Origin: a virus
Length of the DNA: 26,056 nucleotides
Reading direction: 5' to 3' (one strand)
Virus record (IMG/VR): IMGVR_UViG_3300017741_000042
Span: 1-26,056 of that record
Positions within the stretch are counted from its first letter, which is position 1, and every line of letters starts with the position of its first letter. Below are positions 1 to 17,505 of this stretch, piece by piece. The notes beneath the pieces were generated by a model. The model did no database searches and was not told the DNA's origin. It saw nothing but the letters and a program-made list of their open reading frames with translations. Made by a program: the position numbers and the translations under genes.

Positions 1-294
1 ATCAACACTATATAAGTTAGTTATATCGTGAACTAGTCCTGCTTTTATAGCATACCTAACTACATCATCTTTAAATGCTAGATCTTGATCTTTTATTTGT
101 TGGTAAGTTGCTTCATGTAATGAGTCAATATCAATGTGAGTTAATAAGTTTTTCCAACTACGATCACCTTCTTTAGCTTCAATATATTCATACGCAGTAT
201 CCATTCCATCATTACTTTTCCACCAAGCTTGAACAATAGTTCTTTCATTATTAGTAAAATGCGCTGATAAAAAATCATAACCTTCAATTGCCAT
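1..294 (-). CDS. Small charged protein after fibre tip gene, partial (paralogue of the 164-aa protein at 15133-15627)
   Basis: Only the first 98 codons are in the window; the 3' end lies beyond position 1. The ATG at 294 has a GGGAG ribosome site that sits in the last codons of the upstream 310-aa gene, with only 2 bases between stop and start. By eye about 54 of 98 residues match the 164-aa protein at 15133-15627, including NERT near residue 16, NLLTHI, LHEATY and the DQDxAF block. No signal peptide or membrane segment is visible and the protein looks soluble and acidic. In both places the gene directly follows a tip-like protein gene. By analogy with T4 gp38/gp57A or Tfa proteins, which follow fibre genes and assist their assembly or cap them, a fibre chaperone or adhesin cap is possible. 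I see no direct homology to those families, so function is unknown. Confidence 0.85.
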   Translation of the reverse strand, partial: MAIEGYDFLSAHFTNNERTIVQAWWKSNDGMDTAYEYIEAKEGDRSWKNLLTHIDIDSLHEATYQQIKDQDLAFKDDVVRYAIKAGLVHDITNLYSVD

Positions 295-4325: not shown

Positions 4326-4580
4326 CTATAACGCTCCTAAATCGTATTGCTTAATTTCTACTACTGGATCTAAACAATCATAATCTGAGTTATTTATTAC
4401 ACTCACACCGAATGCATCTGGATTAACTAAGCCTCTAGGAGTAGCTCCTACGGCAGTTGATTCGTCTGCATTCAAATCAATATTAGTACTATTTATAACA
4501 TTTACAAACCCAATATCACTGGCAGAGACACCACTTTTTATAAATCCTACTAATTTGTGATTTGCCAGTCTTTTTATCAT
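4326..4580 (-). CDS. Small structural-operon protein (84 aa), function unknown
   Basis: Not recognised. The protein starts with a basic patch (IKRLANHK), contains SGVSASDIGFVNVINS, and ends in an acidic segment (DPVVEIKQYDLGAL); no Cys-pair motif, no transmembrane helix and no signal peptide are visible. The ATG at 4580 overlaps the TGA stop of the upstream 797-aa fibre gene (ATGA, 4 bases) and has a GGAG ribosome site 7 bases upstream, so translational coupling is likely. The downstream 1027-aa fibre starts 10 bases after its stop. Lying between two fibre genes it may be a fibre joint or attachment protein, as T4 gp35 links fibre halves, but nothing in the sequence proves that. It is supported as a real gene by spacing and ribosome site rather than by family membership. 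Confidence 0.7.
   Translation of the reverse strand: MIKRLANHKLVGFIKSGVSASDIGFVNVINSTNIDLNADESTAVGATPRGLVNPDAFGVSVINNSDYDCLDPVVEIKQYDLGAL
4490..4497 (-). promoter_or_regulatory. Possible internal late promoter
   Basis: Exact TATAAATA on the minus strand within the 84-aa gene, about 175 bases before the 1027-aa fibre start. It could give extra transcription of the distal fibre genes. It encodes part of VINS in the gene, and a chance match is about equally likely. Confidence 0.25.
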
Positions 4581-6970
4581 GATATAGCTCCAGCGTCTAT
4601 TGCTTCTAATCTTCCTCGTGGTTCCATGTTATCATATACATCACGCTGTAATACACCAAATGCATCATTAGTTGATAGAGTAACTGCTCCACCGTCAATC
4701 GAAGTCAATCCATTAAGTGTGCTAATTGTAAAAGTATTTGTTTCATATCCAATTACATCAAATGCTATAAGATCTAATATCGTGGAAGAATCAAGTCCAA
4801 CACTACTAGTTGCTAATCTTTCGTCAAAGGAAGAATCAAATCTTGCATCAAATGAACTATCTGTCCTTGCTTGAGTGTAATATAAATTATTACCTTCACT
4901 TAAATCGGTAGTACTAAATGGATTTAAATTAATTGAATCTGTTAATTCAGTTCCAGCAGAAGTAGAAATTGTCAATAGACCACTTGAAGAGTCAAATGCA
5001 ACTCCAGTCACACCTGCGATTGAAACATTTGATGCACTAGTAATTTGACCTTGTGCATTGACTGCAATCTGTGGTACTTGTGATGCAGATCCATATGTTG
5101 CGGCAGATACACCTGTGTTTGTAATGTTGATTACACCTGAAGATGAATCGTGTGTTATACCTGTTCCACCTAATAATGCGGCTTTTGCTGCGCTATCTGC
5201 ACGTGCCGTTGTATAGTATAGATTAGTACCTTCACTTAAATTAGTAGTACTAAATGGATTTAAATTAACTGAATCAGTAAATGAGCTTCCGTCTGCAGTT
5301 GTGATTGTAAGTAATCCACTTGAAGAATCATACGTTAAGCCAGTTACGCCGGCAACTGCAACTGATCCTGCAGAATCTATCTGGCCTTGTGCATTAATTT
5401 TAAGTACTGGTATTTGAGAAGCAGAACCATAGGTTGCAGAATCAACACCTGTGTTTGTAATACTAACTGCGCCTGTGGTTGAATTATAAGTAATTCCTGT
5501 GCTACCTGATAAATAACCTCTAATAGTTTGTGTAGAATTAGATCTTCCTAATGCGGAATCAAAGTCAGAATCAAATCCTAAGTATTGACCTTGAAATGGT
5601 TTATTAAATACAAACTTATCACCAGTTGCAGCATAGGTTAATGTGGCACTTGCACCATTGATTGTAATACCTGCGCCATCGGCAGCTGCAGCGTTTGAAG
5701 CAGAATCTGCTAATACGAGATTCTTATCGTTTAAGCTTACAGTTGTTGAATTAATTGTTGTGGTAGTACCTTCAACTTGTAAGTTACCAAGTATTTGTAC
5801 GGTACCGGTATTATCACCTACAGTTGCAGGATCGATAACAAAGCTTGCAGGACCTCTTACTGAATTAAATGTTACGTCATCAGAAGTTCCAACGGCTTGA
5901 CCGATTGCGATGACACCGGTTGATGAATCGTATGTTACACCTGTTCCACCAAGTAAGGCCGCCTTTGCTGCACTATCTGCTCTTGCAACAGTATAATAAA
6001 GATTAGTGCTTCCTTCACTTAACTTATCCGTAGTTGCAGAGTCAAGATTTTTATCAAAGTCTGAATCACTTCTTGCCACTGTATAGTATAAATTATTAGA
6101 ACCTTCAGATAAGTCATTTGTAGTGGCAGAATCTATAGCAACATTAAAGTCACTATCAAAGTTTGCCTTGGTGTATACCTCCTCAACATCAAATGTAAAT
6201 TGGCCAGTTGCTGAATTGTATGATAAATCACCACCAGCACTAATCGCTCCACGTATCTCGGTAATACGATCGTCTGAATCATGAAGAGTTGTAGAGAACG
6301 TTCCACCGTCAGCAGTATTGATTGTAAACACACCTGTGGCAGAATCATAACTTGTGGACGATACACCTGCAACTGAAACGGTACCTGCAGAATCAATTTG
6401 TCCTTGTGCATTAATTTTAAGAACTGGTACAAGAGATGCTGAACCGTATGTTGCTGCAGTAACTCCCGTATTGGTAATACTTATTGTATCGGTTGCAGAA
6501 TCGTAGGTGATACCTGTTCCACCGTCAAGTGCGGCACCTAAATCTGAATCAAAGTTTGCCTTTGTATATACTGATTCTACATCAAAACTAAATTGTCCTG
6601 AGGAAGAGTCATAACTTAAATCGCCGGAAGCGCTAAAGAATCCTCGTATCTGAGAAGTTGATGCAGACAGATCCATATTAACAGGAGAATTTGCCGAGTC
6701 AGTTACAAGGAATTGAGTTCCAGAATCTTTGAGTTTTAATCCGCCAAGGAAAATTGTACTTCCACTTAGATGTATGTCTTTAAACCTATGAGCGCTATCG
6801 CCAATAGATCTAGTTCCGTCACTATCTGGAATTATATTGCCAAAGGTTGTAGTTGTACCAGTGACTCTTATACCACCTGCACTATCTCTCACATTATTTA
6901 ACGATGCGGCATTAACAGCACGTACGGGTGTTCCTAAGACAATCTTTTTAATAAACGTTGTGCCAGCCAT
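4577..6970 (-). CDS. Long tail-fibre protein with repeats (797 aa)
   Basis: A repeat-built fibre. The N-terminal ~60 residues (TFIKKIVLGTPV, then DSDGTRSIGDSAHRFKDI) resemble the attachment part of marine T4-like fibres, where an RSIGS-type segment precedes FKDLHLSG. It is followed by QFSFDVESVYTKANFDSD modules, also present in the 1027-aa fibre; four LSEG(S/T/N)NLYYT-type units; two nearly identical blocks around SINLNPFSTTDLSEG; and a TTTTINSTTVSL unit. The C-terminal part (ILDLIAFDVIGYETNTF onwards) is less repetitive and may be the distal contact. Asp-Ser dipeptides are exceptionally frequent. The ATG at 6970 has an AGGGGT ribosome site and lies 8 bases after the stop of the 117-aa gene. 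It forms part of the external fibre set; which fibre section it corresponds to in T4 cannot be assigned. Confidence 0.88.
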   Translation of the reverse strand: MAGTTFIKKIVLGTPVRAVNAASLNNVRDSAGGIRVTGTTTTFGNIIPDSDGTRSIGDSAHRFKDIHLSGSTIFLGGLKLKDSGTQFLVTDSANSPVNMDLSASTSQIRGFFSASGDLSYDSSSGQFSFDVESVYTKANFDSDLGAALDGGTGITYDSATDTISITNTGVTAATYGSASLVPVLKINAQGQIDSAGTVSVAGVSSTSYDSATGVFTINTADGGTFSTTLHDSDDRITEIRGAISAGGDLSYNSATGQFTFDVEEVYTKANFDSDFNVAIDSATTNDLSEGSNNLYYTVARSDSDFDKNLDSATTDKLSEGSTNLYYTVARADSAAKAALLGGTGVTYDSSTGVIAIGQAVGTSDDVTFNSVRGPASFVIDPATVGDNTGTVQILGNLQVEGTTTTINSTTVSLNDKNLVLADSASNAAAADGAGITINGASATLTYAATGDKFVFNKPFQGQYLGFDSDFDSALGRSNSTQTIRGYLSGSTGITYNSTTGAVSITNTGVDSATYGSASQIPVLKINAQGQIDSAGSVAVAGVTGLTYDSSSGLLTITTADGSSFTDSVNLNPFSTTNLSEGTNLYYTTARADSAAKAALLGGTGITHDSSSGVINITNTGVSAATYGSASQVPQIAVNAQGQITSASNVSIAGVTGVAFDSSSGLLTISTSAGTELTDSINLNPFSTTDLSEGNNLYYTQARTDSSFDARFDSSFDERLATSSVGLDSSTILDLIAFDVIGYETNTFTISTLNGLTSIDGGAVTLSTNDAFGVLQRDVYDNMEPRGRLEAIDAGAIS

Positions 6971-6978
6971 TTCTACCC

Positions 6979-7332
6979 CTATTTAGTCACTGAAGGCGTT
7001 ACTTGGAGTCTTCCTTCCAAAATTCTTTCAACAATGGTAGTACTATCGCTGTCCTGAAAGGAAATTTCTACGTCATAAACGTATCGTCCTGCTTTAAGAA
7101 TATCAGTGGTAGCATTTGGTAATGTAAGCTGTATGATTCCTGCAGTAGTCGGAGAATTTATAGAAGTTGTAAAAGAGTGTGTATCTGAGCTATCGCTGTT
7201 ATAATTCTTTTTCAATTTTGCATTAACAGCAAATCCTGCTAGATTTTTTTGATCTCCATTTTCATCTGTGCAATGAATTTTAATTGTTACGTCAGAACCC
7301 TGATCAATGGTGAATTCTTCATATTGGGCCAT
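6979..7332 (-). CDS. Small beta-sandwich virion protein (117 aa)
   Basis: Begins MAQYEEFTIDQGSDVTIKI and contains the pattern DQGS...LAGFAVNAKLKKNY...IINSP-like TAGIIQLTLPNATTDILKAGRYVYDVEI...VERILEGRLQVTPSV. This pattern is widespread in small structural proteins of marine T4-like phages and resembles the N-terminal beta-sandwich of baseplate upper proteins. I chose the ATG at 7332 rather than the in-frame ATG at 7377: a GGAG site lies about 7 bases upstream of 7332, the family pattern begins there, and an exact late promoter at 7386-7393 would start transcripts near 7380, leaving almost no leader for the longer form but about 45 bases for this one. It heads the second fibre block and is probably a fibre-attachment or baseplate accessory protein; exact role unknown. 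Confidence 0.82.
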   Translation of the reverse strand: MAQYEEFTIDQGSDVTIKIHCTDENGDQKNLAGFAVNAKLKKNYNSDSSDTHSFTTSINSPTTAGIIQLTLPNATTDILKAGRYVYDVEISFQDSDSTTIVERILEGRLQVTPSVTK

Positions 7333-7385
7333 GAAATACTCCAGTTGATTTCTTTGTCGGACTTCCGTCCCTGCCATCTTTTACT

Positions 7386-7393
7386 TATTTATA
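7386..7393 (-). promoter_or_regulatory. T4-type late promoter upstream of the second fibre block
   Basis: The minus strand reads TATAAATA exactly, the T4 late-promoter -10 element recognised by the gp55 sigma-like factor. Predicted transcription start is about 6 bases downstream, near 7380, giving a leader of about 45 bases to the ATG at 7332, which has a GGAG ribosome site. It is the only non-coding stretch ahead of the 117-aa/797-aa/84-aa/1027-aa/310-aa gene run, which is where a promoter for that run is expected. Confidence 0.7.
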
Positions 7394-7407: not shown

Positions 7408-7415
7408 GATAAATA
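7408..7415 (+). promoter_or_regulatory. Possible late-type promoter for the plus-strand island (one mismatch)
   Basis: GATAAATA differs from the T4 late element TATAAATA at one base and lies only 5 bases before the ATG at 7421. If used with normal late-promoter geometry, transcription would begin at or next to the start codon, giving a leaderless message; no Shine-Dalgarno sequence is visible upstream of that ATG. No convincing sigma-70 -35/-10 pair with 16-18 base spacing was found on the plus strand of 7333-7420, so this is a weak candidate. Confidence 0.3.
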
Positions 7416-7420
7416 CATTT

Positions 7421-8251
7421 ATGAAATTAAATATTATTTGCACAAGTAGACCGTGCGATGGTTTATTTTATTATAGTTATGAATACACACAATATTTAAA
7501 TTTGTGTGGAATCAAGACTCAAATGATTGTTATAACACATCCTCATTTTACCTCTGAAGATTACATTAATTCTATTAATCAAAAATACATCTCATTTAAA
7601 AATGTAGTGTTTGATGACTTTGATGATGATTCGACATGCAATTTAATCATGGGTAGAAGTATGTTGACTCTACCTTGGCTTGATCGTAAATCATATACAC
7701 AAGATCAATTAATGATATTGCATCTTCTTTTTAAAAATAAAATTATATCAGTATATTCTGAAAACCATAAGACGAGATACTATAAGGCTTTACAATATTT
7801 TCAACCTGAAGAAGTCATAGACTTATGCGATCATGATGTATATCCAAATGGAATAGGCAAACATTTTGAAAAAAAGATATTCTTTGATATACATAAACCA
7901 GTTACAGAAAATTATCAATTTGAACATCTTTTTATTGGTACAAATAGAACTTACTACGATGCTGCTAAAAAATTAGCTTATAAATATAAATCTCATGGCA
8001 TAATAATATACGATAATTATGATCATGATTCTAATTTAAATAATGTGATTGCGCCTGTTGAAAATTTATTAGGAATATTTAAAAAATACATATATACTAA
8101 AGGCACGGTAGATCCTGCGCCTAGGCTTATTCAAGAGTGCAAATATCACAATAAAGAAATTATATATGAAGCTTCAAACACTGGAGCAGAAGCGTATAAA
8201 AATAGAACTATAGAAAAACCAAATGTAGAGAGTATAATAAATGAATTATGA
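7421..8251 (+). CDS. GT-B-like putative glycosyltransferase (276 aa)
   Basis: First gene of the plus-strand island. The N-terminus KLNIICTSRPCDGLFYY, a beta-strand followed by a Gly-containing loop and helix, suits a Rossmann-like half. A second half near residues 165-250 has FIGTNRTYYDAA, then YIYTKGTVDPAPRLIQEC (about 223-240), where the KGTxDPAPRLIQEC stretch resembles the donor-binding region of phage glycosyltransferases. I start at ATG 7421; the upstream in-frame TTG at 7406 has no better ribosome site and adds five unremarkable residues. Its end overlaps the next gene by 11 bases. Likely role is sugar transfer in the glycan pathway encoded by this island; acceptor and donor unknown. 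It has no DxD motif in a GT-A context. Fold assignment is an inference from pattern, not an alignment. Confidence 0.75.
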   Translation: MKLNIICTSRPCDGLFYYSYEYTQYLNLCGIKTQMIVITHPHFTSEDYINSINQKYISFKNVVFDDFDDDSTCNLIMGRSMLTLPWLDRKSYTQDQLMILHLLFKNKIISVYSENHKTRYYKALQYFQPEEVIDLCDHDVYPNGIGKHFEKKIFFDIHKPVTENYQFEHLFIGTNRTYYDAAKKLAYKYKSHGIIIYDNYDHDSNLNNVIAPVENLLGIFKKYIYTKGTVDPAPRLIQECKYHNKEIIYEASNTGAEAYKNRTIEKPNVESIINEL

Positions 8252-9296
8252 AGGTTGGGACCAAGACTATCTTGAAAATGAATTACTATATTTAAATTTA
8301 TTTAATGATGCAATTCAAAAAGACAATGAAAAAAACGTAGAATTTTTAGAAAAAAAGATTTCTAAATATATTGGACGTAAACATGGAATCGCAATTAATA
8401 GTGCAACGGACGCATTGTATTATTCACTTAAATGTTATGATATTGGTCCAGGAGATGAAGTGTTAGTAAGTGATTTTTCTTGGATATCTTCTGCATCTTG
8501 TATTCTTATGGCTGGTGCAACTCCTGTATTCTGTGACATCGATTTAAATTCTTATCATATGTCATTTGATGAGATTAAAAAGAAAACTACAAGTAAAACT
8601 AAAGCAATCATTTACACTCATCTCTTTGGTAATATGACTGAAACACAAGAGATAGAAAACTATTGTAAACAAAATAATATAACATTTATTGAAGATGCTG
8701 CTCAATCACTTGGCTCAAAATACAAAGATAAATATGCAGGAGCAATTGGTGATATCAGTTCTTTTAGTTTTAATCACAATAAAGTTATATCAGGAATATC
8801 TGGTGGAGGCATGATATTTACTGACATAGATTCAACTGCAGAATATTTACGCAAGATAAGAAAACACGGTAAAGGCAAAGATTATGAAACTCTCGGTTAT
8901 AATTCAAAAATGTTTTATATGAATGCAGCATATATTGAAATGAGATTTGATAGAATGAATGAATTACAAATGCGTAGAGTACGAATAGCTCATAAATATC
9001 AAGAAGAGTTAGAAGATTTACCTGTTGTAACTCAAGTAGCTGATAATAATTTAGTGCACAATTATCATAAATACGTAGTAAGATTTGAAAGTAAAGAAAT
9101 AAGAGATGAAGTAAAAAATACTCTAAAAGCAAAAATTCATTATGATTCGCCGATATCAAAAAATAGCATGTTTAATCTAACGCCATGTCCTAATGCACAA
9201 ATAGCAAGTGACACTGTACTTTCTTTACCTTGTCATCCATACGTAACTGATGAAGAAATAAGCCAAACTTGCATGACTATAGGAATTATAGCGTGA
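8241..9296 (+). CDS. DegT/DnrJ/EryC1/StrS family PLP sugar aminotransferase (351 aa)
   Basis: Fold-type I PLP enzyme that transfers an amino group, usually from glutamate, to a keto-sugar nucleotide. Visible family features in order: GIAINSATDALYYSL (about 49-63), GPGDEVLVSDFSWISSA (69-85), AGATPVFCDID (91-101), EDAAQSLGSKY (151-161) with Asp152 expected to contact the PLP ring nitrogen, and SSFSFNHNKVISGISGGG (173-190) with Lys181 as the Schiff-base lysine. The C-terminal domain has the KYVVRF strand and ends LPCHPYVTDEEI, typical of the family. Length is slightly short for the usual ~370-390. The ATG at 8241 has a GAGAG ribosome site inside the previous gene. A keto-sugar-forming dehydratase is not in the window, so the substrate must come from the host or from elsewhere in the phage. 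Confidence 0.93.
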   Translation: MNYEGWDQDYLENELLYLNLFNDAIQKDNEKNVEFLEKKISKYIGRKHGIAINSATDALYYSLKCYDIGPGDEVLVSDFSWISSASCILMAGATPVFCDIDLNSYHMSFDEIKKKTTSKTKAIIYTHLFGNMTETQEIENYCKQNNITFIEDAAQSLGSKYKDKYAGAIGDISSFSFNHNKVISGISGGGMIFTDIDSTAEYLRKIRKHGKGKDYETLGYNSKMFYMNAAYIEMRFDRMNELQMRRVRIAHKYQEELEDLPVVTQVADNNLVHNYHKYVVRFESKEIRDEVKNTLKAKIHYDSPISKNSMFNLTPCPNAQIASDTVLSLPCHPYVTDEEISQTCMTIGIIA

Positions 9297-10108
9297 ACAT
9301 TAACGAAATTGATGTATTTAAAATAAGAGCAATAGATTTTTACTTGTCAAAATCTTGTAATAAATCTTGTCACTACTGTACTGCTTGGACATTAGAGATG
9401 AGAAACTTAACAGTTGACATGGATTTTTTAAGTAAAACTTTAAAATGGCTTTCACCTTATGTTGTTAGAATACAACTACTCGGTGGAGAACCGGGTCTCA
9501 TAAAAAATTTAGATGAAGTTCTTAATGAAATTAAAAAATATCCAAACTTAATACCTACTATTTTATCCAATTCATTTGTAAGAAAACGATATCCTCACGT
9601 GCTTGATGATCCTAATATACTTTACCAAGAACACTTAGTTCTTGATTTTCATGAAGATAGAATAGAAAAGTTAGGTAACTTTGATTTCTTTGAAGAGAAC
9701 GATAAAAATAACTATAACATTATTATTATGACTCCAAATTATTTTAAATACAGAGAAAATCATGATTTAACTAGAGTCGATCATAAAAATACTCAATTAA
9801 AAAAATTTAATTCAAGATCTCCTAATTTTATAGACATGGAACAAGCACCAGAATTTGATAGAAGAATATGTGCTGCCTTTCCAAAGGTTCCTGTAGTAGA
9901 TTTTGAGTTGCAGAGAATAAGACACTGCAGTAAAAAAGTAATAAATGGTTCGAGAAGATATGAAGTAACAGAAGAAAATATTAATAAGATGATGAACTAT
10001 GAACTTTTTGCGTTTGAAGAGTATTGCAAAAAATGCTTTGAGCCGATTGATAAAAGATCACAAGAACAGATACTTGATATAGTTGCCGTAGGAAAAGTAA
10101 TGCAATGA
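9293..10108 (+). CDS. Radical SAM enzyme with C-terminal cysteine cluster (271 aa)
   Basis: Contains the radical SAM cluster motif CNKSCHYC (Cys22, 26, 29; CxxxCxxC) and the GGEP SAM-binding motif at 64-67, following a predicted beta strand. Four further cysteines lie at about 193, 212, 245 and 248 (RRICAAF, IRHCSKK, EYCKKC), an arrangement resembling the Twitch/SPASM auxiliary iron-sulfur region. I start at GTG 9293, which overlaps the TGA of the aminotransferase gene and has an AGGA site about 8 bases upstream; the longer TTG start at 9269 has no such site. The stop overlaps the next ATG (ATGA). Twitch/SPASM proteins include peptide-modifying enzymes and aminoglycoside-type sugar dehydrogenases/epimerases. 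Next to an aminotransferase and glycosyltransferases, a sugar substrate is the more likely reading, but a virion protein or peptide substrate cannot be excluded. Confidence 0.88.
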   Translation: MNINEIDVFKIRAIDFYLSKSCNKSCHYCTAWTLEMRNLTVDMDFLSKTLKWLSPYVVRIQLLGGEPGLIKNLDEVLNEIKKYPNLIPTILSNSFVRKRYPHVLDDPNILYQEHLVLDFHEDRIEKLGNFDFFEENDKNNYNIIIMTPNYFKYRENHDLTRVDHKNTQLKKFNSRSPNFIDMEQAPEFDRRICAAFPKVPVVDFELQRIRHCSKKVINGSRRYEVTEENINKMMNYELFAFEEYCKKCFEPIDKRSQEQILDIVAVGKVMQ

Positions 10109-10794
10109 AAAAAATATTATTAGTAAGTGGTTGTAGTTTTACAACACGTGAATATAAATCTCATCAGCACCCAGAAAAAGATTTTGCTTCATATGATAAA
10201 TGGCCAGAGATGCTTGCAGAAAAACTTAATATGCAATGTGTCAACTTGGCAAAGTCAGGAGCCGGAAATGAATTTATTTCTAATACTATTATTGATTACA
10301 TAGAAACAACGGATAAGTCAAAAATTGGATTAGTTATACCTGCTTGGTCTCAATGTCGCAGAAGAGATTATCAAACGTATTCCACTAGATCAAAAAGTAC
10401 TAGATGGAGATTTGAAATGTATGATCTTTTTGGTGATACTAGATATTGGATAAGGAAAAGTCTTAAAACTTATTATTTTTTTCAAATATATTGCGATTAT
10501 TATAATATACCTTACAAACAAGTTCAAATGATAGAATTATTTAAAGACAATATTGAAATTGATTTTAATGAAGAAAAGAAAGAAATGGATGATTTTACAA
10601 TAGATGAAATGTATTATAAAAAGCTTAAAAACTTTATAGGAGAAACTACACCTATTTTAAGTTTACAAGATGCTTTAACTGGTAATAGAAGAGACAAAGA
10701 AAAAATTAAAGAATTTTGTATATCTTCAGAAGACTGGCATCCAAGTAAAAATGGACATCGCTGGATGACGGAGTATATCTATGAAAATATTTAG
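10105..10794 (+). CDS. SGNH/GDSL hydrolase-like protein (229 aa)
   Basis: Opens with KKILLVSGCSFTTREY, a beta strand followed by the nucleophile loop (Ser11 in GCSFT). SGAGNEF at about 51-57 matches the Asn/Gly blocks of the SGNH fold, and DWHPSKNGHRW at 210-220 supplies the Asp/His pair near the C-terminus (DxHPxxxGH as in many phage members). SGNH enzymes deacetylate or transacetylate glycans and lipids. In this operon a role in removing or adding an O-acyl group on the glycan is plausible. The ATG at 10105 overlaps the stop of the radical SAM gene by 4 bases. The middle region (95-170) is rich in aromatic and charged residues and not diagnostic. No signal peptide, so it should act in the cytoplasm. 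Confidence 0.75.
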   Translation: MKKILLVSGCSFTTREYKSHQHPEKDFASYDKWPEMLAEKLNMQCVNLAKSGAGNEFISNTIIDYIETTDKSKIGLVIPAWSQCRRRDYQTYSTRSKSTRWRFEMYDLFGDTRYWIRKSLKTYYFFQIYCDYYNIPYKQVQMIELFKDNIEIDFNEEKKEMDDFTIDEMYYKKLKNFIGETTPILSLQDALTGNRRDKEKIKEFCISSEDWHPSKNGHRWMTEYIYENI

Positions 10795-12310
10795 TGCATC
10801 ATTTAGTCCACACGATCACAATACGTATGATGGTGAGTGGCATAATCAAAGAGAAAGATATACTCGTAGAAAACACAACATCCCTTGGCATTTTGACGCG
10901 TATCCACAATACGACACAGCAAGTAAAATGAATTCAGATGATAATAGTGCTGGTATAAAATTTTATGAAGAATATTGGAATCCTAAAAGTCATGACATGT
11001 ACGCATTTACTACTACTGTAGGTGGAATGAATAAAATACCTCAACTACAAGTGTTTAAAGATGATATTGATTGGTACCCTAAAAACCTATGGGATTATAA
11101 AATGCTTGACAACAACTTGTATTACATAGATCATCATCAATCGCATGCAGCATACGCTTACTTACTATCTGAGTATGAACAGTCTGACATATTAGCTATA
11201 GACGGAAGAGGATGGAAATACAATTGTATTTTTATTGACAAAGAAAATAATATAACTGATTTATCCGAAGAAATGAATATAGGCACGTTATGGAATTATG
11301 TATCTAAAGAACTTGGATTTGGAAATCTAGGTGCAAGTAAAGTGATGGGTCTTGCCGCTTATGGCTCATATAGAGATGACATTCACATGATATTAGATGG
11401 ATATTGGGATGACGTTAATGAATTTAAACGAAGTTTCGAAAAGATACAAGAAAAACAAGTCATGCAAGAAAGAATAAAACAAAGCGGATGGAAGTGTGAT
11501 GTTGCTCATACTTTACAGGTTGCCACAGAAGAAAAAATAAGAGATCACATATATCCATTAAAAACATGTGATAATATCTGTGTGGCTGGTGGTGTTGCTT
11601 ATAACGGATATGTTAATGAAATGTTATATGAAAATTGGTCCAGCGTATATGTACCACCTGCACCCGGTGATGAAGGACAATCCATTGGAACATATATGCA
11701 CGCTAATTATGTTTTAAATAAAGAAATACATAAACCTTCTGTTTATGCTGGTAAAGAATATAGCTATGAAGGATCAAAGGAAGTAAACTTAAAAGAAGTT
11801 GCACAAGCAATTGCTGACGGCAAAATTGTAGGTTGGTTTCAAGGGAAATCAGAAAGTGGCCATAGAGCGCTAGGTAACAGAAGTATTCTTGCAGATCCTC
11901 GTAATCCAAATATTAAAGATATTATTAATAAAGAAATAAAATTAAGAGAAGACTTTAGACCTTTTGCTCCTTCTGTTTTAGAAGAGTGTTATAAATTATG
12001 GTTTGATACACCTGAACCAAGTCCTTATATGTCACGTATTGTAAAAGTTAAAAGGCCTGAAGAAGTTCCAGGGATAACTCATGTTGATGGAACTGCTCGT
12101 ATTCAAACTGTTAATAGAAAGCAAAATAAAAAATACTATGATTTAATAAATGAGTTTTACAATATTACAGGTGTGCCAATGCTTCTCAATACAAGCTTTA
12201 ACTGTAGAGAGCCAATAGTAGAAACTCCTAGAGAAGCTATAAATACTTTTAACAATACAGAATTAGATATGGTGATAATAAATGAATATTGTATGTCTAA
12301 AGTGGGGTGA
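10781..12310 (+). CDS. NodU/CmcH/TobZ family carbamoyltransferase (509 aa)
   Basis: Enzymes of this family make carbamoyl-adenylate from carbamoyl phosphate and ATP in a Kae1-like domain and pass the carbamoyl group to a sugar or antibiotic hydroxyl. Visible landmarks: HDHN at 11-14, HHQSHAAYAY (118-127) with the metal-binding His residues, LAIDGRG around Asp141, GASKVMGLAAYG (184-195), CVAGGVAYNGYVNE (267-280), GKSESGHRALGNRSI (355-369), REDFRPFAPSVL (389-400) and LLNTSFNCREPIV (468-480). Both the Kae1-like N-terminal and the YrdC-like C-terminal parts appear complete. The ATG at 10781 has a GGAG site and overlaps the SGNH gene by 14 bases. This is the strongest indication that the island builds a decorated sugar. 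The carbamoyl phosphate would come from the host. Confidence 0.94.
   Translation: MKIFSASFSPHDHNTYDGEWHNQRERYTRRKHNIPWHFDAYPQYDTASKMNSDDNSAGIKFYEEYWNPKSHDMYAFTTTVGGMNKIPQLQVFKDDIDWYPKNLWDYKMLDNNLYYIDHHQSHAAYAYLLSEYEQSDILAIDGRGWKYNCIFIDKENNITDLSEEMNIGTLWNYVSKELGFGNLGASKVMGLAAYGSYRDDIHMILDGYWDDVNEFKRSFEKIQEKQVMQERIKQSGWKCDVAHTLQVATEEKIRDHIYPLKTCDNICVAGGVAYNGYVNEMLYENWSSVYVPPAPGDEGQSIGTYMHANYVLNKEIHKPSVYAGKEYSYEGSKEVNLKEVAQAIADGKIVGWFQGKSESGHRALGNRSILADPRNPNIKDIINKEIKLREDFRPFAPSVLEECYKLWFDTPEPSPYMSRIVKVKRPEEVPGITHVDGTARIQTVNRKQNKKYYDLINEFYNITGVPMLLNTSFNCREPIVETPREAINTFNNTELDMVIINEYCMSKVG
12238..12245 (+). promoter_or_regulatory. Possible internal late promoter
   Basis: Exact TATAAATA on the plus strand, inside the last codons of the carbamoyltransferase gene. 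It would start transcripts near 12251 and give a ~30-base leader to the glycosyltransferase at 12282. Exact matches of an all-A/T octamer are expected about once in 8 kb of sequence this AT-rich, so this may be coincidental. Confidence 0.25.
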
Positions 12311-12986
12311 TAAATTTAGTCATGAGCATGTCAATCGGCTATATCGAATGGTATGCAAGAATTTTAAACATGACTTTAAATTTATTTGTCACACTGAAAA
12401 TGGAAACAATATAGATGATAATATAATTATACAACCATTACCAGATTATGGTTTAGAAAAATGGTGGCCAAAGCTTACATTGTTTGAACATCCTGCTGAT
12501 GTACCTAATATATTTTTTGATTTAGATGTTGTGATACAAAATGATATTACTCACTTTAAAGATTATTTTATTAAAGATAAACTATGTATGATAAAAGCGT
12601 ATTGGAAGCCTTATCAACTCGTAGAATTTGATACTAATCTCAATTCATCAATTATGATATGGTATGGTGACAACACAAACATTTGGAAAGAGTTTGAGTC
12701 AAACATGGAATATTACATGTTGAAATATAAAGGCATTGATGGTTACTTAGATCATAACCAGTCTGACAAACTTTTTTATCTACCAAAAGGTGAGGTATAT
12801 TCTAGGCTTTACGGTATAGGCGAAAATAATTACTGGAGAGCAGGCACTGATATTAAACCAAAATATTTTTATGAACCTAATTACAATGTATGTATTTTTA
12901 ATGGTTGGAAAAGAACAGACGAATGGACTGGAGAATATGAACTAGATGATGAGGGATATAATGGATTCGAACATTACTGGAATTGA
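12282..12986 (+). CDS. GT-A-like glycosyltransferase with DxD motif (234 aa)
   Basis: N-terminal pattern MNIVCLKWGDKFSHEHVNRL followed by FKFICHTEN and KWWPKLTLFE, then NIFFDLDVVIQNDIT with the Asp80-Leu-Asp82 metal and sugar-nucleotide motif, as in GT8-like and related phage glycosyltransferases. NSSIMIW (around 116) fits the strand lining the active site. A C-terminal CIFNGWKRTDEW segment is followed by an acidic tail. The gene overlaps the carbamoyltransferase by 29 bases and the methyltransferase by 26. The start ATG at 12282 has GGTG as a modest ribosome site, and a TATAAATA octamer lies at 12238-12245 upstream inside the previous gene. It likely transfers a sugar in the island's glycan pathway; donor and acceptor unknown. 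Soluble, no membrane anchor. Confidence 0.82.
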   Translation: MNIVCLKWGDKFSHEHVNRLYRMVCKNFKHDFKFICHTENGNNIDDNIIIQPLPDYGLEKWWPKLTLFEHPADVPNIFFDLDVVIQNDITHFKDYFIKDKLCMIKAYWKPYQLVEFDTNLNSSIMIWYGDNTNIWKEFESNMEYYMLKYKGIDGYLDHNQSDKLFYLPKGEVYSRLYGIGENNYWRAGTDIKPKYFYEPNYNVCIFNGWKRTDEWTGEYELDDEGYNGFEHYWN

Positions 12987-13599
12987 ACCTGCTATACACG
13001 ATAGCTTTAACAAGGCTTGTAAACTTGGAATTGATTTTTATCATTTTCTCGATAGTTTCTCTCAGTCTCAAGTAGAATCTAAAACTTGGTTAGTTGATTC
13101 ACTATCACTCATAACCGACCAAGCGACATATAAAATAGGTGCTCGTATTCAATTGTTTGGAGGATGGAATGGCATCTTAATTACGAGACTACTTACTCAA
13201 AATATATCAAACATAAAAAGAATTCATAATATAGATCTTGATGAAAAATCAATTAAGGTGTTCAGACGATATAGAGAATTTACAAATGATAATAGATTAG
13301 AATCAACCTGTGGAGATGTAAGAACACCTCATAAGTTCGACCGCGGCGCTGATATTGTTATCGACACATCGTCTGAACATATGCCTAATCTACCAGAGAT
13401 GATAAAAGACAAACAATACAAACCTGAATGTTTATTTGCTTTGCAAAGTAATAACATGTTTCACGTTGAAGATCATATTAATTGTGTTAATAGTGAACAA
13501 GAACTAATAGAAAAATCTGAGTTATCAAAAGTAGTGTATAGAGGATCTTTAGATATGCCAAACGGTTATAAAAGATTTATGGTTATTGGATATGTCTAG
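12961..13599 (+). CDS. Class I SAM-dependent methyltransferase-like protein (212 aa)
   Basis: Shows a Rossmann-type methyltransferase layout: IQLFGGWNGILITRLL (63-78) as a variant of the glycine-rich motif I, then IHNIDLDEKSIKVFRR (88-103) with the acidic residue that binds the SAM ribose, CGDVR (117-121), and ADIVIDTSSEHM (130-141) as motif IV. Motif I is unusual, with GGWNG in place of the common GxGxG. I use the ATG at 12961 because GAGGG lies 5 bases before it; the ATG pair at 12946 has no such site. It overlaps the preceding gene by 26 bases and the following one by 8. In this setting it could O- or N-methylate a sugar, or a protein or small molecule; nothing in it fixes the substrate. 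Confidence is moderate for fold, low for substrate. Confidence 0.7.
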   Translation: MDSNITGIEPAIHDSFNKACKLGIDFYHFLDSFSQSQVESKTWLVDSLSLITDQATYKIGARIQLFGGWNGILITRLLTQNISNIKRIHNIDLDEKSIKVFRRYREFTNDNRLESTCGDVRTPHKFDRGADIVIDTSSEHMPNLPEMIKDKQYKPECLFALQSNNMFHVEDHINCVNSEQELIEKSELSKVVYRGSLDMPNGYKRFMVIGYV

Positions 13600-14368
13600 A
13601 GTAATTTATAGTTTTTATATTGACATACAAAATCCTGTATCTCATTTCGAAAATCAAGGTAAGTTTAATAATAATTTAAATTGGCTACTCGACAAACAAA
13701 AGAAATATGCCGAGTTATGTGGAGCTGATTATCTGCATTTCGTTTACGATGATAAGTACATAGAATTCAGTAAACAGTTTGGACCTGAAGTATCAGAATA
13801 TAATATCATAAATTTTTATAAGATGCATCTATTGTATCAGCTTGATTATGATGAGATACTTTATTTAGATATAGATGTCGTTCCGGTTACTAAACATAAC
13901 TTTTTTGAAGTATGGGATTTAAAAAAAGGCATAGCGATAATGTCTGAAGAGTGGGGCATAAAAGACAATAATAGAGATAAGCATTGTGTAAGATCTCCTC
14001 TCGCAAAGTACTGGAATGCGCAGGCTTTATTAGGCTATGCTAAAGAAGTATTTAATACTGGAATTATAGGCGCTAATCAAAAATCATTGAAAGAATTAGA
14101 TTACTTTAAAGACTTTCATGAAACTTTAGCAGAAATGAAAAGATTAACTGAAGATGATTTTTGGCCTGATGATATTCGTAATCTTTTTGGTTACGATAAT
14201 GAGACTATATTTGCTTGCAGAATAAATGAATATCAACAACTTTATAAAACTGGTTGGCACTTTTTTATGGACAGATGGAGTTTTATACCAGAACATGCAA
14301 AGCTTGTGCACTGCATTAACAAAGATTTTGATTACGTGAGAAAATGGTGTGAAAAGAATAATATTTAG
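13592..14368 (+). CDS. GT-A-like glycosyltransferase with DxD motif (258 aa)
   Basis: Starts SRVIYSFYIDIQNP, followed by KQKKYAELCGADYLHFVYDD (36-55), KMHLLYQLDYDEILYLDIDVVPVT (78-100) with the Asp93-Ile-Asp95 motif, and a VFNTGIIGANQKSL strand (around 150). The C-terminus has LVHCINKDF, where His may complete the metal site, as in GT8-type enzymes. The next gene shares the same architecture and several blocks (YCGADYF/LCGADYL, DxDVxPxTKxNxFE, HCINKDF/HQVNKDF), so the two are paralogues. I start at ATG 13592, two codons after an in-frame TTG at 13586. It overlaps the methyltransferase gene by 8 bases and the next gene by 20. Expected to transfer a sugar from a nucleotide sugar; donor and acceptor unknown. 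Confidence 0.8.
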   Translation: MSRVIYSFYIDIQNPVSHFENQGKFNNNLNWLLDKQKKYAELCGADYLHFVYDDKYIEFSKQFGPEVSEYNIINFYKMHLLYQLDYDEILYLDIDVVPVTKHNFFEVWDLKKGIAIMSEEWGIKDNNRDKHCVRSPLAKYWNAQALLGYAKEVFNTGIIGANQKSLKELDYFKDFHETLAEMKRLTEDDFWPDDIRNLFGYDNETIFACRINEYQQLYKTGWHFFMDRWSFIPEHAKLVHCINKDFDYVRKWCEKNNI

Positions 14369-15158
14369 TATTTGGTCAGATTTGACCTCAGATCATATTT
14401 CTGCTCCAGACTGGAAGAAAGAGTCTTTTCGTAAGTTTAAAGACAAACTAGTTGAAAGACAAAGACAATACGCACAGTATTGTGGCGCAGACTATTTTAC
14501 CTTCGTACCAAGATCTACGGATTATGTAGACGTACAATTTGATAAGATATTAAAATTTGAAGAGCTGACAAAAGAATACGATCAAGTAGTATATTTTGAT
14601 TTAGACGTAATACCAATAACTAAAACAAATATATTTGAACAGTTTGATTTTGATTATCCATGTGTTTATGATATTGATGTAAATAAACACGCTCAAGATG
14701 AAGAATGGAAGACGTGGTTAAGATGGCAATATAAAGAAAAAAATATCATAGATCCTATGAGTCTATATTCTAAAGCAGCCGCCAAAAAGGCTATGTTACT
14801 AATAGAAGACATTGTCAGTAATGATCGTATTTGTAATACTGCAGTTATCTGTGGAAACCAAAATGCTGCAAATCTATTAAAGTTTAGCGAAAGAATATCA
14901 GATATCGATAAAACTTTACTAGAAGCAAAAAACGATGGTTTATATCCAAGAGAATATTCAGAAGGTTGGGTAAGAAATAACGAAGTTTATTTTTCTTTTA
15001 TATTGGAAAGATATAATATTAAATATACTAACATAGGAATTCAATGGAATTACATATTAGATGAATTTATGTCAGAATTTACTTATGGGGTTCATTTAAT
15101 ACATCAGGTAAATAAAGATTTTGAAAAAACCTTTACTCGTCTAGAATCTCAAGAGTAG
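14349..15158 (+). CDS. GT-A-like glycosyltransferase with DxD motif (269 aa), paralogue of the preceding gene
   Basis: Opens with KRIIFSIWSDL, parallel to the RVIYSFYIDI start of its neighbour, then RQRQYAQYCGADYFTFVP (37-54), QVVYFDLDVIPITKTNIFE (79-97) with Asp84-Leu-Asp86, a CNTAVICGNQNAANL strand (around 162-176), and LIHQVNKDFEKTF near the end. The GTG at 14349 is the start that aligns with the paralogue; the ribosome site is weak, so coupling to the upstream gene (20-base overlap) is likely. Its 3' end runs 26 bases into the convergent 164-aa gene on the minus strand, marking the right edge of the island. Two consecutive paralogous transferases suggest successive addition of similar sugars in one glycan chain, which is inference. 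Confidence 0.8.
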   Translation: MKRIIFSIWSDLTSDHISAPDWKKESFRKFKDKLVERQRQYAQYCGADYFTFVPRSTDYVDVQFDKILKFEELTKEYDQVVYFDLDVIPITKTNIFEQFDFDYPCVYDIDVNKHAQDEEWKTWLRWQYKEKNIIDPMSLYSKAAAKKAMLLIEDIVSNDRICNTAVICGNQNAANLLKFSERISDIDKTLLEAKNDGLYPREYSEGWVRNNEVYFSFILERYNIKYTNIGIQWNYILDEFMSEFTYGVHLIHQVNKDFEKTFTRLESQE

Positions 15159-15627
15159 CCTTAATAGCATCCATTAAACTTTCAGCTTTTCTCAGTTTTG
15201 CTTTTATTTCTCTATTTGATGATTTCTTTATTTTATCAACTTCAAATAATTTAAGCTTAAACATAAAAAGTTTTTCTTTATCTTTTTCTGGATCAAATGG
15301 TCCAAAAATAAAATCCACTATTAACTTCATTGTCTCAACGTCATTCAAGTTAGTTAAATCGTGAATTAATCCTCTTTCTTTAGCTATCTTAATAACGTCT
15401 TCTCTAAATGCCATATCTTGATCATGCATTTGTTTGTAAGTTGCTTCATGTAACTTTTCGAGACTAATGTGAGTTAATAAGTTTTCCCAATTAGGATCGC
15501 CGGTTTTAGCCTCAATATGTTCTACTCTTGTTTCTAATCCATCAGGTGTTACCCAATATACTTCGACATTTGTTCTTTCATTATCAGAAAAATGTGCTGT
15601 TAAAAATTCATGTCCTGGAAGTGCCAT
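15133..15627 (-). CDS. Small charged protein after fibre tip gene (164 aa), function unknown
   Basis: Full-length form of the protein whose start lies at 294-1. The N-terminal ~100 residues carry HEFLTAHFSDNERTNVEVYW, NLLTHISLEKLHEATY and DQDMAFREDV; a hinge FIFGPFDPEKDKEKLF (around 108-124) leads to a Lys/Glu-rich, probably helical or coiled-coil tail ending in EILDE. No membrane segment or signal peptide. It starts 3 bases after the 307-aa tip gene, with a GGTTAAA-type weak ribosome context (AAAGG upstream). Its last 26 bases overlap the convergent glycosyltransferase gene. Because it follows the tip gene in both cassettes, a dedicated fibre-assembly factor or tip-associated protein is the most economical guess. 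The TLE/KLEEL-like charged tail could dimerise. I do not recognise a named family. Confidence 0.85.
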   Translation of the reverse strand: MALPGHEFLTAHFSDNERTNVEVYWVTPDGLETRVEHIEAKTGDPNWENLLTHISLEKLHEATYKQMHDQDMAFREDVIKIAKERGLIHDLTNLNDVETMKLIVDFIFGPFDPEKDKEKLFMFKLKLFEVDKIKKSSNREIKAKLRKAESLMDAIKATLEILDE

Positions 15628-15630
15628 AAT

Positions 15631-16554
15631 TTAACCTTTCGTTATCCTTAAAAACCATGTTTCAATTGTTGTTGCAGTACCATTCGGAAACTCTTGCGCT
15701 CGATAATCATCAACACCTACAAATCTTTGTTGATAATTACCGTTGCCGTTTAATTTAGTGTTAACTATACCAGAGCCTTTATTGTTTCCGGTTCCATTTA
15801 CACTATATACTATCAGTGATCCTGAAGTGTTGACTGTATGATGCCTTAATTCTTCGAGCAACATTGAGTCTAATGTTGTGCTGGTGTATTCTTGTAAATT
15901 ATTATCGCCGTTTATTTGTAAAGGTGCGGTATATGAAGGCGCTGTACCTTGACTTGTTCTAAACAAATAATAGTTGTTAATAACCGTTGGCTGGTCTAGT
16001 GTTTCTCCAATTCCATCTTGAGTATATGCACCAGTATTTGCACGTGTATCTTGAAAGACTGGAGTAGACGATGATAATACGTGTCCAGCAAGAGATGTTG
16101 AAGTGTGTATTCTAAACGTACCTGATCTATCGTTTCCATCAACGAGAATATCAATAGCAGGACTTATAAACGTATCATGAACATCAGTAGCGTTCATTGC
16201 TCGAATATTACTACCAGTCCAATATACTGGATATAATTTATTATTTGTATCTGTTGGAGTATTAACAGTCGCATTTGATTGACTCATTCTATCGTAAGTG
16301 ACTGTAGCTTCTCCGGGTTCTGCTGTAGTTGCTTCATTTGGTGTTGCAGTTGTGCTTGTTGAGACAGCTCCAGCCGTCATTCTTGTATCAACCATGCCTG
16401 GTGATATAGTTCCACTGCTGCTAACAACTGTCACTGTTGCACTAGGATTAGCTCCATATGAATATACAGCCCTATCAACAAGTCCGCTGACCATAGAAGA
16501 TGACATTTCTCGTAAATTTGTGCCATCCCAATATAAAGGGACCCTGACCGTCAT
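15631..16554 (-). CDS. Putative tail-fibre tip / receptor-binding structural protein (307 aa, copy 1)
   Basis: Paralogue of the 310-aa protein at 297-1229, collinear from PLYWDGTN to the C-terminal DDYRAQEFPNGTATT. Most divergent regions are residues ~60-90 (Thr/Ala rich in this copy, charged in the other) and ~195-260, with highly conserved blocks LVDGNDRSGTFRIHTST and DTRANTGAYTQDGI between. It lacks Cys and is Ser/Thr/Asn rich, as expected for a beta-structured virion protein. The ATG at 16554 follows the stop of the 247-aa fibre by 2 bases, with the ribosome site in GCAGGTGC, exactly as in the other cassette. Likely assembles on the short fibre; receptor-binding is inferred from position and from duplication with divergence. 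Confidence 0.85.
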   Translation of the reverse strand: MTVRVPLYWDGTNLREMSSSMVSGLVDRAVYSYGANPSATVTVVSSSGTISPGMVDTRMTAGAVSTSTTATPNEATTAEPGEATVTYDRMSQSNATVNTPTDTNNKLYPVYWTGSNIRAMNATDVHDTFISPAIDILVDGNDRSGTFRIHTSTSLAGHVLSSSTPVFQDTRANTGAYTQDGIGETLDQPTVINNYYLFRTSQGTAPSYTAPLQINGDNNLQEYTSTTLDSMLLEELRHHTVNTSGSLIVYSVNGTGNNKGSGIVNTKLNGNGNYQQRFVGVDDYRAQEFPNGTATTIETWFLRITKG

Positions 16555-16556
16555 AG

Positions 16557-17300
16557 TTAAGCACCTGCGCCGTGTATAGTTTTAACCGTTGATCCTGATG
16601 AATTTATAATTAAAAGTGTTGATAATGTTTTTAACTGTGTTGAACCTATAGCATCATCGGCCATATTGGCTTCAGCTACTGTATCAGCTGCAATCTTAGC
16701 ACCTGTAACTTGAGCATCGGCAATATGTGCAGTATCTATTGATCCATCAACATAATGCTCAGAGTTAATTACGTCATCTGCAATCTTAGCTGCTGTAATA
16801 GCATCTGCAGCTATTTTTGCAGTTGTCACCTGTAAGTCAGCTATGTGAGCCGTGTCAATAGAACCATCAGTGTAGTGTTCTGAATTAATTGCATCATCGG
16901 CTATTTTAGCGCCGGTGACAGCATCTGCTGCTAATTTGTCTGTTGTAATTGCAGAAGTTTCAATCATACTAATATTGACTGTGTGAGGTGGAATAAAGAA
17001 TCGACCTTCAGAAGAATCTAATCCGATTCCGTTTGCACTATCTTTTTGTAAAAGCGATGTAATACCTGATGTTGTGTTTGTAGTTTGTCTTGCTTGTACG
17101 TATGCTGAATCAATAAGAGTAGTAACATCACCGGAGCTGTCTTTACTAGTCATTAGAAAATTTATTGCTTGTACTAAATCAGAATCGTTTGTACTGCCAA
17201 CATTTAATGATGTTATATCGCCTATATGACTCGATATTGTATTGGTCTTAGTTACAAGAGTTGATACAGGATCTGATAAATTTATTATTGTTTTAGCCAT
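16557..17300 (-). CDS. Short tail-fibre protein (247 aa)
   Basis: The N-terminal part (IINLSDPVSTLVTKTNTISS, SHIGDITSLNV, DLVQAINFL, LIDSAYVQAR) is an attachment region seen in fibres of marine T4-like phages. Then the protein switches to the same repeat as the 1027-aa fibre: 23-residue INSEHYTDGSIDTAHIAD units at 133-155 and 173-195, joined by AKIAADAVTGAKIA-type linkers. The last ~30 residues (LKTLSTLLIINSSGSTVKT then HGAGA) match the end of the 1027-aa fibre almost residue for residue. The gene overlaps the end of the 70-aa gene by 8 bases. It looks like a minimal fibre: attachment, two repeats and a shared distal cap on which the 307-aa protein may sit. Confidence 0.88.
   Translation of the reverse strand: MAKTIINLSDPVSTLVTKTNTISSHIGDITSLNVGSTNDSDLVQAINFLMTSKDSSGDVTTLIDSAYVQARQTTNTTSGITSLLQKDSANGIGLDSSEGRFFIPPHTVNISMIETSAITTDKLAADAVTGAKIADDAINSEHYTDGSIDTAHIADLQVTTAKIAADAITAAKIADDVINSEHYVDGSIDTAHIADAQVTGAKIAADTVAEANMADDAIGSTQLKTLSTLLIINSSGSTVKTIHGAGA
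16716..16784 (-). repeat. 23-residue fibre repeat, near-identical copy in the short fibre
   Basis: Residues 173-195 of the 247-aa fibre; reads DDVINSEHYVDGSIDTAHIA, two substitutions from the consensus. Confidence 0.85.
16836..16904 (-). repeat. 23-residue fibre repeat in the short fibre
   Basis: Residues 133-155 of the 247-aa fibre. Protein identical to copies A-C of the long fibre; 10 of 23 codons differ from copy A. Confidence 0.9.
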
Positions 17301-17505
17301 CGAGCTTCTCTACTATTTTGGTTAACATTTTCTTTATATCACTTACTTCATTTTTTAATTCAAACAATTCATTGTCTTTATTTAGTCTATCGGCCTTACG
17401 TCTTTTTGCTGCTTCAATTTCTTCATTGTTAGTATTTAAGACAGCACCAGTTCTCTTGTCTTTAACATAACCACTATGGCCATCAATATTGGCGTAATAA
17501 CTCAT
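17293..17505 (-). CDS. Small coiled-coil protein (70 aa)
   Basis: Starts SYYANIDGHSGYVKDKRTGAV, a short polar head, followed by a Lys/Glu/Asn-rich helix EIEAAKRRKADRLNKD and a heptad-like ELKNEVSDIKKMLTKIVEKL, typical of a coiled coil. Its ATG at 17505 overlaps the stop of the 526-aa gene (TAATG) and its 3' end overlaps the fibre start by 8 bases, so expression is coupled to both. Such short coiled-coil proteins occur between baseplate and fibre genes in T4-like marine phages; a linker, adaptor or trimerisation role is possible. No enzyme motif, membrane segment or signal peptide. Confidence 0.78.
   Translation of the reverse strand: MSYYANIDGHSGYVKDKRTGAVLNTNNEEIEAAKRRKADRLNKDNELFELKNEVSDIKKMLTKIVEKLDG

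Follow-up and report, generated by a model that had tools for sequence, protein, structure and literature searches.

The virus record IMGVR_UViG_3300017741_000042 in IMG/VR was analyzed over positions 1 to 26,056, and this whole 26,056-nucleotide stretch is called the window. In this DNA of a T4-like marine phage, a nine-gene plus-strand island (positions 7421 to 15158) lay between two duplicated fibre cassettes, and the analysis confirmed that the island is real. We propose that the island is a late-expressed locus that probably produces a modified aminosugar and uses it to glycosylate the tail fibre and/or an adhesin-like protein of 307/310 amino acids (aa). This proposal was built on the observed enzyme families, a conserved linkage to the fibre cassette, and an enrichment of late promoter motifs.

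The island contained nine open reading frames (ORFs) of 217 to 509 aa, which we named g1 to g9 in their order on the plus strand. The ORFs overlapped head to tail and were gap-free, and the rest of the window was coded on the minus strand. Guanine-plus-cytosine (G+C) content was 0.28 to 0.34 within the island versus 0.34 to 0.40 in the rest of the window, and the sign of the skew flipped at the left and right island ends. The ORF map, G+C content, and skew agreed with an earlier note on this DNA, which had described nine overlapping plus-strand genes in a minus-strand fibre region. All nine ORFs had relatives in other contigs, and codon position 3 was the most divergent position in all nine genes in pairwise codon comparisons with those relatives. 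Because of these relatives and the concentration of change at codon position 3, we took the nine ORFs to be translated genes. A nearest-DNA search of window bases 1 to 25000 against 50,697 phage records yielded no match, and a search of the window for the 2-oxoglutarate-dependent oxygenase family found none. The island genes were as follows, where SAM is S-adenosylmethionine and GT-A and GT-B are glycosyltransferase fold types.

7421..8251, plus: g1, 276 aa, putative compact GT-B fold glycosyltransferase, identified by fold only
8241..9296, plus: g2, DegT/DnrJ/EryC1/StrS sugar-type aminotransferase (PF01041, 6.9e-83)
9269..10108, plus: g3, radical SAM enzyme (PF04055, 9e-7)
10105..10794, plus: g4, SGNH/GDSL-like hydrolase or acyl/acetyl-transferase, an optional gene
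10781..12310, plus: g5, NodU/TobZ-family O-carbamoyltransferase (PF16861, Carbam_trans_C, 1.1e-66; PF02543, 6.8e-21)
12282..12986, plus: g6, GT-A-type glycosyltransferase with a DLDV motif (phrog_1962, 6.9e-12)
12946..13599, plus: g7, class I SAM-dependent methyltransferase by model
13586..14368, plus: g8, GT8-type glycosyltransferase (PF01501, 8.5e-9)
14349..15158, plus: g9, putative glycosyltransferase, a diverged g8 paralogue

Families and folds also supported the enzyme list of the earlier note, and its four glycosyltransferases corresponded to g1, g6, g8, and g9. Of these, g6 and g8 were called by family and g1 by fold. No Pfam, PHROG, or NCBIfam family matched g1. The g1 model (predicted local distance difference test [pLDDT] score of 94) had a GT-B fold over its whole length, and its two Rossmann-like domains matched known GT-B enzymes along that length. 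The best match was PimA (Z 16.0, root-mean-square deviation 3.8, 246 aligned), and nearly all of the fold matches listed were glycosyltransferases. Based on this confident model, g1 is a putative GT-B glycosyltransferase. The g1 family includes Mosig_00083 (L007:15412-16278; 53% identical) of Pelagibacter phage Mosig, which carries an annotation for molybdenum cofactor biosynthesis; given the GT-B glycosyltransferase fold of the g1-family model, this annotation is likely wrong. The analysis suggested functions for misannotated or unannotated genes such as g1.

In the case of g2, comparison with solved structures returned PDB 7b0d (2.8e-59) as well as WbpE and QdtB (about 1e-43), and the lysine of the pyridoxal phosphate site was aligned. 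The radical SAM cluster motif CxxxCxxC was present in g3, with C30, C34, and C37 invariant in a 28-sequence alignment. Four more cysteines (201, 220, 253, and 256) were invariant in the same alignment, which suggests an auxiliary cluster. The family score of g4 itself was weak (0.056), and a search against solved structures gave nothing convincing. Lipase_GDSL_2 was matched by 8 of 14 g4 relatives (best 4.4e-5) and the family has invariant Gly, Ser, Asp, and His residues, so g4 is termed SGNH-like on the strength of its relatives alone. The N and C domains of g5 were both present, its metal site HHxxxH and both Asp motifs were invariant, and its match to TobZ was 1e-49. For g6 and g8, the residue pairs D80/D82 and D95/D97, respectively, were invariant. 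The g7 model (pLDDT 91) had a class I methyltransferase fold with methyltransferase matches down to 2.7e-8, and the family keeps the motif NTSxEHM. The g9 protein was 27% identical to g8 over 279 columns (2e-19) and retained the DLDV motif. In several relatives (L002:8657-10024, L003, and others), g6 and g7 were fused into a single protein of 440 to 490 aa; in the window they are separate genes with a 41-base overlap.

The island was flanked by two related minus-strand cassettes, each with a fibre gene, a 307/310-aa protein gene, and a 164-aa-type gene. These and the neighboring genes were as follows.

15133..15627, minus: 164-aa gene, right island boundary, probably a fibre-assembly chaperone
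15631..16554, minus: 307-aa adhesin-like structural protein, candidate acceptor
16557..17300, minus: 247-aa tail fibre, right cassette (phrog_892 tail fibre, 9.7e-25)
6979..7377, minus: 132-aa gene, left island boundary (phrog_3304, L-shaped tail fibre assembly, 1.2e-14)
4577..6970, minus: 797-aa fibre-region structural protein (phrog_697 structural protein, 2.5e-19)
1232..4315, minus: 1027-aa tail fibre with an Mtd_N start, left cassette (phrog_892, 1.8e-34; PF18454, 2.9e-7)
297..1229, minus: 310-aa paralogue of the 307-aa protein, left cassette
1..294, minus: cut copy of the 164-aa gene, left cassette (full-length in the near-identical contig L009 and 56% identical to the 164-aa gene)
17505..23110, minus: 526-aa and 1341-aa VrlC-like baseplate genes (phrog_358, 1e-120 and 1e-241)

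The flanks had been described in the earlier note as duplicated modules, and the sequences bore this out: the 307-aa and 310-aa proteins were 62% identical, and the fibre segments were 66 to 71% identical. The 797-aa protein and the 1027-aa fibre had one segment in common. The 3' end of g9 ran 26 bases into the convergent 164-aa gene. The chaperone assignment of the 164-aa gene is an inference, and a similarly placed gene after the fibre of phage C48C1 matches tail fibre assembly families. Family searches with the 307-aa protein returned no family match. The 1341-aa gene matched VrlC of phage Mosig, and contig L009 continued past the left cassette to a phrog_211 head-tail adaptor, a family that includes a Mosig neck protein.

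To examine the linkage between island and fibre cassette, we used the 307-aa structural protein as bait, which lies outside the island and is hence independent of it. A single-sequence scan with this protein found two loci only, and a four-sequence alignment found 420 IMG/VR relatives. We covered the best 80 of these 420 loci and the best 80 of the 130 loci found with g3 (see below); genes in relatives were assigned by BLAST at 1e-4, and the contigs are fragments. There were 62 distinct 307-aa copies, 48 of which were usable in that they had the 164-aa gene and enough sequence past it. Module genes were present no more than eight genes downstream of the 307-aa gene, past the 164-aa gene, in 46 of the 48 loci; a g6/g8/g9-type glycosyltransferase was found in 45 and g7 in 36. 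None of the 48 loci had module genes on the upstream, baseplate side. The two exceptions resembled left-cassette copies that run on into other genes.

The sugar genes of some relatives were more tightly bound to the cassette. In 25 of 61 loci, the 307-aa gene was immediately followed by a nucleotide-sugar epimerase gene (PF01370, up to 8e-27), which in most cases overlapped the 164-aa gene next in line. In same-strand variants, g6 was coupled to the 164-aa gene at spacings of -29 to +26. Thus, sugar genes are built into the fibre operon of these relatives, and the same-strand transferase genes are apparently co-transcribed with the fibre cassette in some of them. The earlier note had proposed a dedicated fibre-linked system from position in one contig, and the 46 loci together with the operon arrangements carried this proposal further. 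The reverse orientation of the island, as seen in the window, was not fixed: the module was opposite to the cassette in 34 loci and on the same strand in 12.

The g3 family, with 130 relatives in IMG/VR viral contigs, appeared to be nearly phage-only. Its single hit among the 50,697 phage records was Pelagibacter phage Mosig; no other isolate combined g1, g3, g7, and the 307-aa protein, which is Mosig_00097 in this phage. The g3 profile found two small metagenome-assembled genome contigs only among 84,980 genomes. A cellular origin of g3 thus gained no support: no donor was found, and these two contigs might themselves be of phage origin and have been binned with bacteria. The 58 distinct islands showed a co-occurring core of g5 (57 islands), g2 (55), g7 (48), and g1 (44). 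In 22 of the 58, the gene order and borders were as in the window; we called these islands fibre-type. The right border was visible in 19 of them, and 17 of the 19 stopped exactly at the 164-aa gene. The other 36 islands had g3-g5-g7 plus g1/g2 in different phages, lacked g8/g9, and had g6 in one case only.

The smallest complete islands bounded by the 164-aa and 132-aa genes (L101, L109, and L161) consisted of g6 to g9 plus one radical SAM gene. Therefore, it is the transferase part that is bound to the fibres, with g1/g2/g3/g5 as an optional sugar-making part. The earlier note had treated the nine genes as a unit and asked whether the same set always sits beside the fibre genes. The unit did not hold up: g6 to g9 were tied to fibres, and g1/g2/g3/g5 were optional there.

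Other frequent island partners were nitroreductase-like proteins, PP-loop proteins, further radical SAM enzymes, uridine diphosphate (UDP)-glucose dehydrogenase, and epimerase. Apparent PP-loop/radical SAM fusions of 743 to 769 aa were encoded at L033:6380-8611, L072:4829-7063, and L087:6541-8850, with the radical SAM part confirmed by Pfam for L033 and judged by sequence start and size for L072 and L087. These fusions suggest that the two domains act together. At L064:2378-3598 and L083:2491-3705, g1 was fused to a cysteine-rich domain that resembled a small gene accompanying the radical SAM gene rSAM222; rSAM222 and the small cysteine-rich gene may be a split SPASM/twitch enzyme. A second block in Mosig (L007:8551-14804, minus strand) adjoined the island and contained genes for Asp/Arg hydroxylases, a TauD-like dioxygenase, a peroxiredoxin, an aminotransferase, and a fatty acid desaturase. 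The module of one 262-kb viral contig, which also has a gp23-type capsid gene, was adjoined by an apparent ABC transporter that includes a solute-binding protein (PF13416; L088:15531-19005). Cyanophages S-CAM8 and S-MS29 carried a lone carbamoyltransferase about 36% identical to g5 (L089:11920-13530 and L090:5242-6873), inverted among minus-strand genes about 5 kb from a tail fibre gene, a layout that echoes the window.

Motifs of the T4 late promoter type were present at three places around the island.

7408..7415, plus: GATAAATA, motif resembling a T4-type late promoter, ahead of g1
7386..7393, minus: TATAAATA ahead of the divergent 132-aa gene of the fibre region
12238..12245, plus: TATAAATA, possible internal late promoter 36 bases upstream of g6, weak alone

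The count of exact TATAAATA in the window was not above chance, and therefore the case for promoters depends on where the motif is placed in relatives. After island spacers were de-duplicated by eye, NATAAATA was found in 7 of 10 distinct spacers before fibre-type islands versus 1.45 expected, a result seen in 0 of 2000 shuffles. Before the other islands, 7 of 16 spacers contained it versus 1.79 expected. In Mosig, which encodes a late sigma factor, NATAAATA was upstream of 11 of 29 late structural genes versus 1 of 35 early genes, and TATAAATA precedes Mosig_00082. The best reading of these motifs is that the island is probably expressed late.

In the desosamine pathway, a DegT-type enzyme (DesI) works alongside a radical SAM enzyme (DesII), a methyltransferase, and glycosyltransferases. 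With a similar division of labor, g2 and g3 would act on a nucleotide-sugar of the host to give an unusual amino/deoxy sugar, which g5, g7, and perhaps g4 would decorate. The transferases g6, g8, and g9, together with the predicted GT-B enzyme g1, would then transfer this sugar to the acceptor and lengthen it during virion assembly. We infer the substrate, the order of the steps, the acceptor, and the very existence of the glycan from the genes. A bolder version is put forward tentatively: a phage-only radical SAM/aminotransferase/carbamoyltransferase pathway might make a sugar unknown from cells, which fibre-locked glycosyltransferases put on adhesins, with swappable sugar-maker cassettes and fibre sequence setting the receptor-binding chemistry.

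Sugar genes of ocean phages are usually read as tools for altering the host, and transferase genes locked to fibres point to the virion. If the fibres are indeed glycosylated, marine T4-like phages of a widespread group put a carbamoylated, radical-SAM-derived sugar on their receptor-binding parts. This would help to explain the hypervariability of the locus and a possible failure of fibre sequence, taken by itself, to predict host range. The cultured pair of phage Mosig on HTCC1062 carries the core module, which allows a direct test.

Several observations weighed against fibre glycosylation. The motif GATAAATA was only 5 bases from the g1 ATG, which is tight for a promoter with a leader, and late timing would also be compatible with host-surface remodelling late in infection. 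No relative among solved structures was found with profiles of g6 and g8/g9, and none of the island enzymes reached an NCBIfam equivalog cut-off, so no substrate was assigned. Some fibre-linked islands were without g1/g2/g3/g5. The earlier note had also raised the finding of islands away from fibres, and this was partly the case: g1/g2/g3/g5 also occurred in the second group of phages, where the nearest Mtd_N fibre was 9 to 24 kb off in the 17 contigs in which one was found. The fibre was not clearly closer than under random placement (P 0.056), and the second group was not used as support. Finally, linkage is an association and does not identify the acceptor.

The main rival is that the island remodels the host surface glycan (lipopolysaccharide [LPS] or O-chain), which would exclude competing phages or, late in infection, stop progeny from sticking to debris. 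We consider it rather unlikely overall, with the late variant the more plausible one. The closest annotated g2 relatives include the LPS/surface-sugar enzymes WbpE, ArnB, and PseC, relatives of the island carry UDP-glucose dehydrogenase and epimerase genes, and the GT8 enzymes of the pelagimyophage host recognition cluster have been read as host-surface modifiers (PMC7029224). However, early exclusion is ill-suited to late-type promoter motifs, glycosyltransferase and epimerase genes inside the fibre operon are not predicted by host-surface remodelling, and family searches recognized no flippase or serotype-conversion family among the nine ORFs. The earlier note had placed fibre glycosylation and host-surface recoding on an equal footing; because of the late promoter motifs and fibre-operon membership, we favor fibre glycosylation.

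Synthesis of a diffusible or peptide-borne small molecule, in the manner of a natural-product cluster, is an improbable role for the island. Relatives are rich in radical SAM, nitroreductase-like, and PP-loop genes, including the PP-loop/radical SAM fusions, and g5-family carbamoyltransferases tailor antibiotics. Family searches of the nine ORFs recognized no precursor peptide, nonribosomal peptide synthetase/polyketide synthase, or exporter, and up to four glycosyltransferases per island and the strict fibre linkage fit such a product poorly.

Modification of phage DNA with carbamoylated or glycosylated bases against restriction would have a precedent in the phage carbamoyltransferase that produces 5-carbamoyloxymethylcytosine from 5-hydroxymethylcytosine (5hmC) (PMC8670742), and T4 alpha-glucosyltransferase was among the g1 fold matches (Z 14.3). 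We judged DNA carbamoylation to be very unlikely. The 5hmC enzyme was 22 to 24% identical to the island carbamoyltransferases, which formed a separate compact clade with 55 to 68% identity to g5 of the window. Its partner, a thymidylate-synthase homologue (PF00303), was found in 2 of 20 island contigs, most of which are incomplete records, and was absent from Mosig (141 kb), which has ThyX instead, and from a 262-kb contig. Moreover, the module is linked to fibres. Least probable of all is hypervariable cargo without a fixed role, maintained by a recombination hotspot between fibre genes: gene content differs strongly among relatives, island G+C is low, and this class of locus is hypervariable (PMC7029224), but g3 was 56 to 86% identical across very different contigs, all nine genes had codon patterns of protein-level constraint, and g5 was nearly universal among the islands.

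Two thymidylate synthase loci are recorded here in their own right. In Synechococcus phage S-SCSM1 (L091:7522-11772), four annotated carbamoyltransferase ORFs were directly 3' of a thymidylate synthase gene; this arrangement is linked to 5-carbamoyloxymethylcytosine, and the locus is a candidate DNA-modification locus. A 123-kb contig that bears an island had, close to its end (G006:C1:120747-121409), a thymidylate-synthase-like match with two internal stop codons.

When the island is compared with known systems, one biosynthetic parallel is DesI/DesII, where the two enzyme classes are likewise paired and a methyltransferase and glycosyltransferases accompany them. However, the DesI equivalog cut-off was not reached (140 versus 650 bits), and no DesII orthology was found for the island radical SAM enzyme. 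Likewise, g5 had both domains and the metal-site motifs of the NodU/TobZ O-carbamoyltransferases but fell far under the NodU equivalog cut-off (137 versus 1000 bits). The phage-borne 5hmC carbamoyltransferase (PMC8670742) belongs to the same superfamily as g5 but, at the identity given above, to another clade.

Virion glycosylation has been demonstrated in mycobacteriophages, whose capsid and tail-tube subunits carry glycan (Freeman et al. 2023, cited in PMC12619734). As in that system, the island has phage-encoded glycosyltransferases and the phage's own virion as proposed target; unlike it, the island is linked to fibre/adhesin genes, adds radical SAM and carbamoyltransferase enzymes, and is known here from genes alone. 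The host recognition cluster of pelagimyophages, which infect SAR11, is hypervariable, lies beside VrlC with a neck-gene border, and contains tail fibres, GT8, and radical SAM cassettes (Zaragoza-Solas et al. 2020, PMC7029224). The window resembled it in having VrlC-like genes on one side and, in contig L009, a head-tail adaptor on the other, as well as tail fibres and GT8 glycosyltransferases. The earlier note needs correction here, as the class of the locus is that of this cluster, and hypervariable loci of this kind, with GT8 and radical SAM genes, are already on record. PMC7029224 had 0 occurrences of carbamoyltransferase or aminotransferase, both of which are features of the island; in the passages covered, a conserved module, a linkage to an adhesin cassette, and a late promoter are all absent, and the genes are taken to serve O-chain modification. 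The literature search covered open-licence papers, so earlier work may have been missed; in the papers found, there was no account of the module, its linkage to the fibre cassette, the in-cassette epimerase, or the late promoter motifs, and these elements are apparently new.

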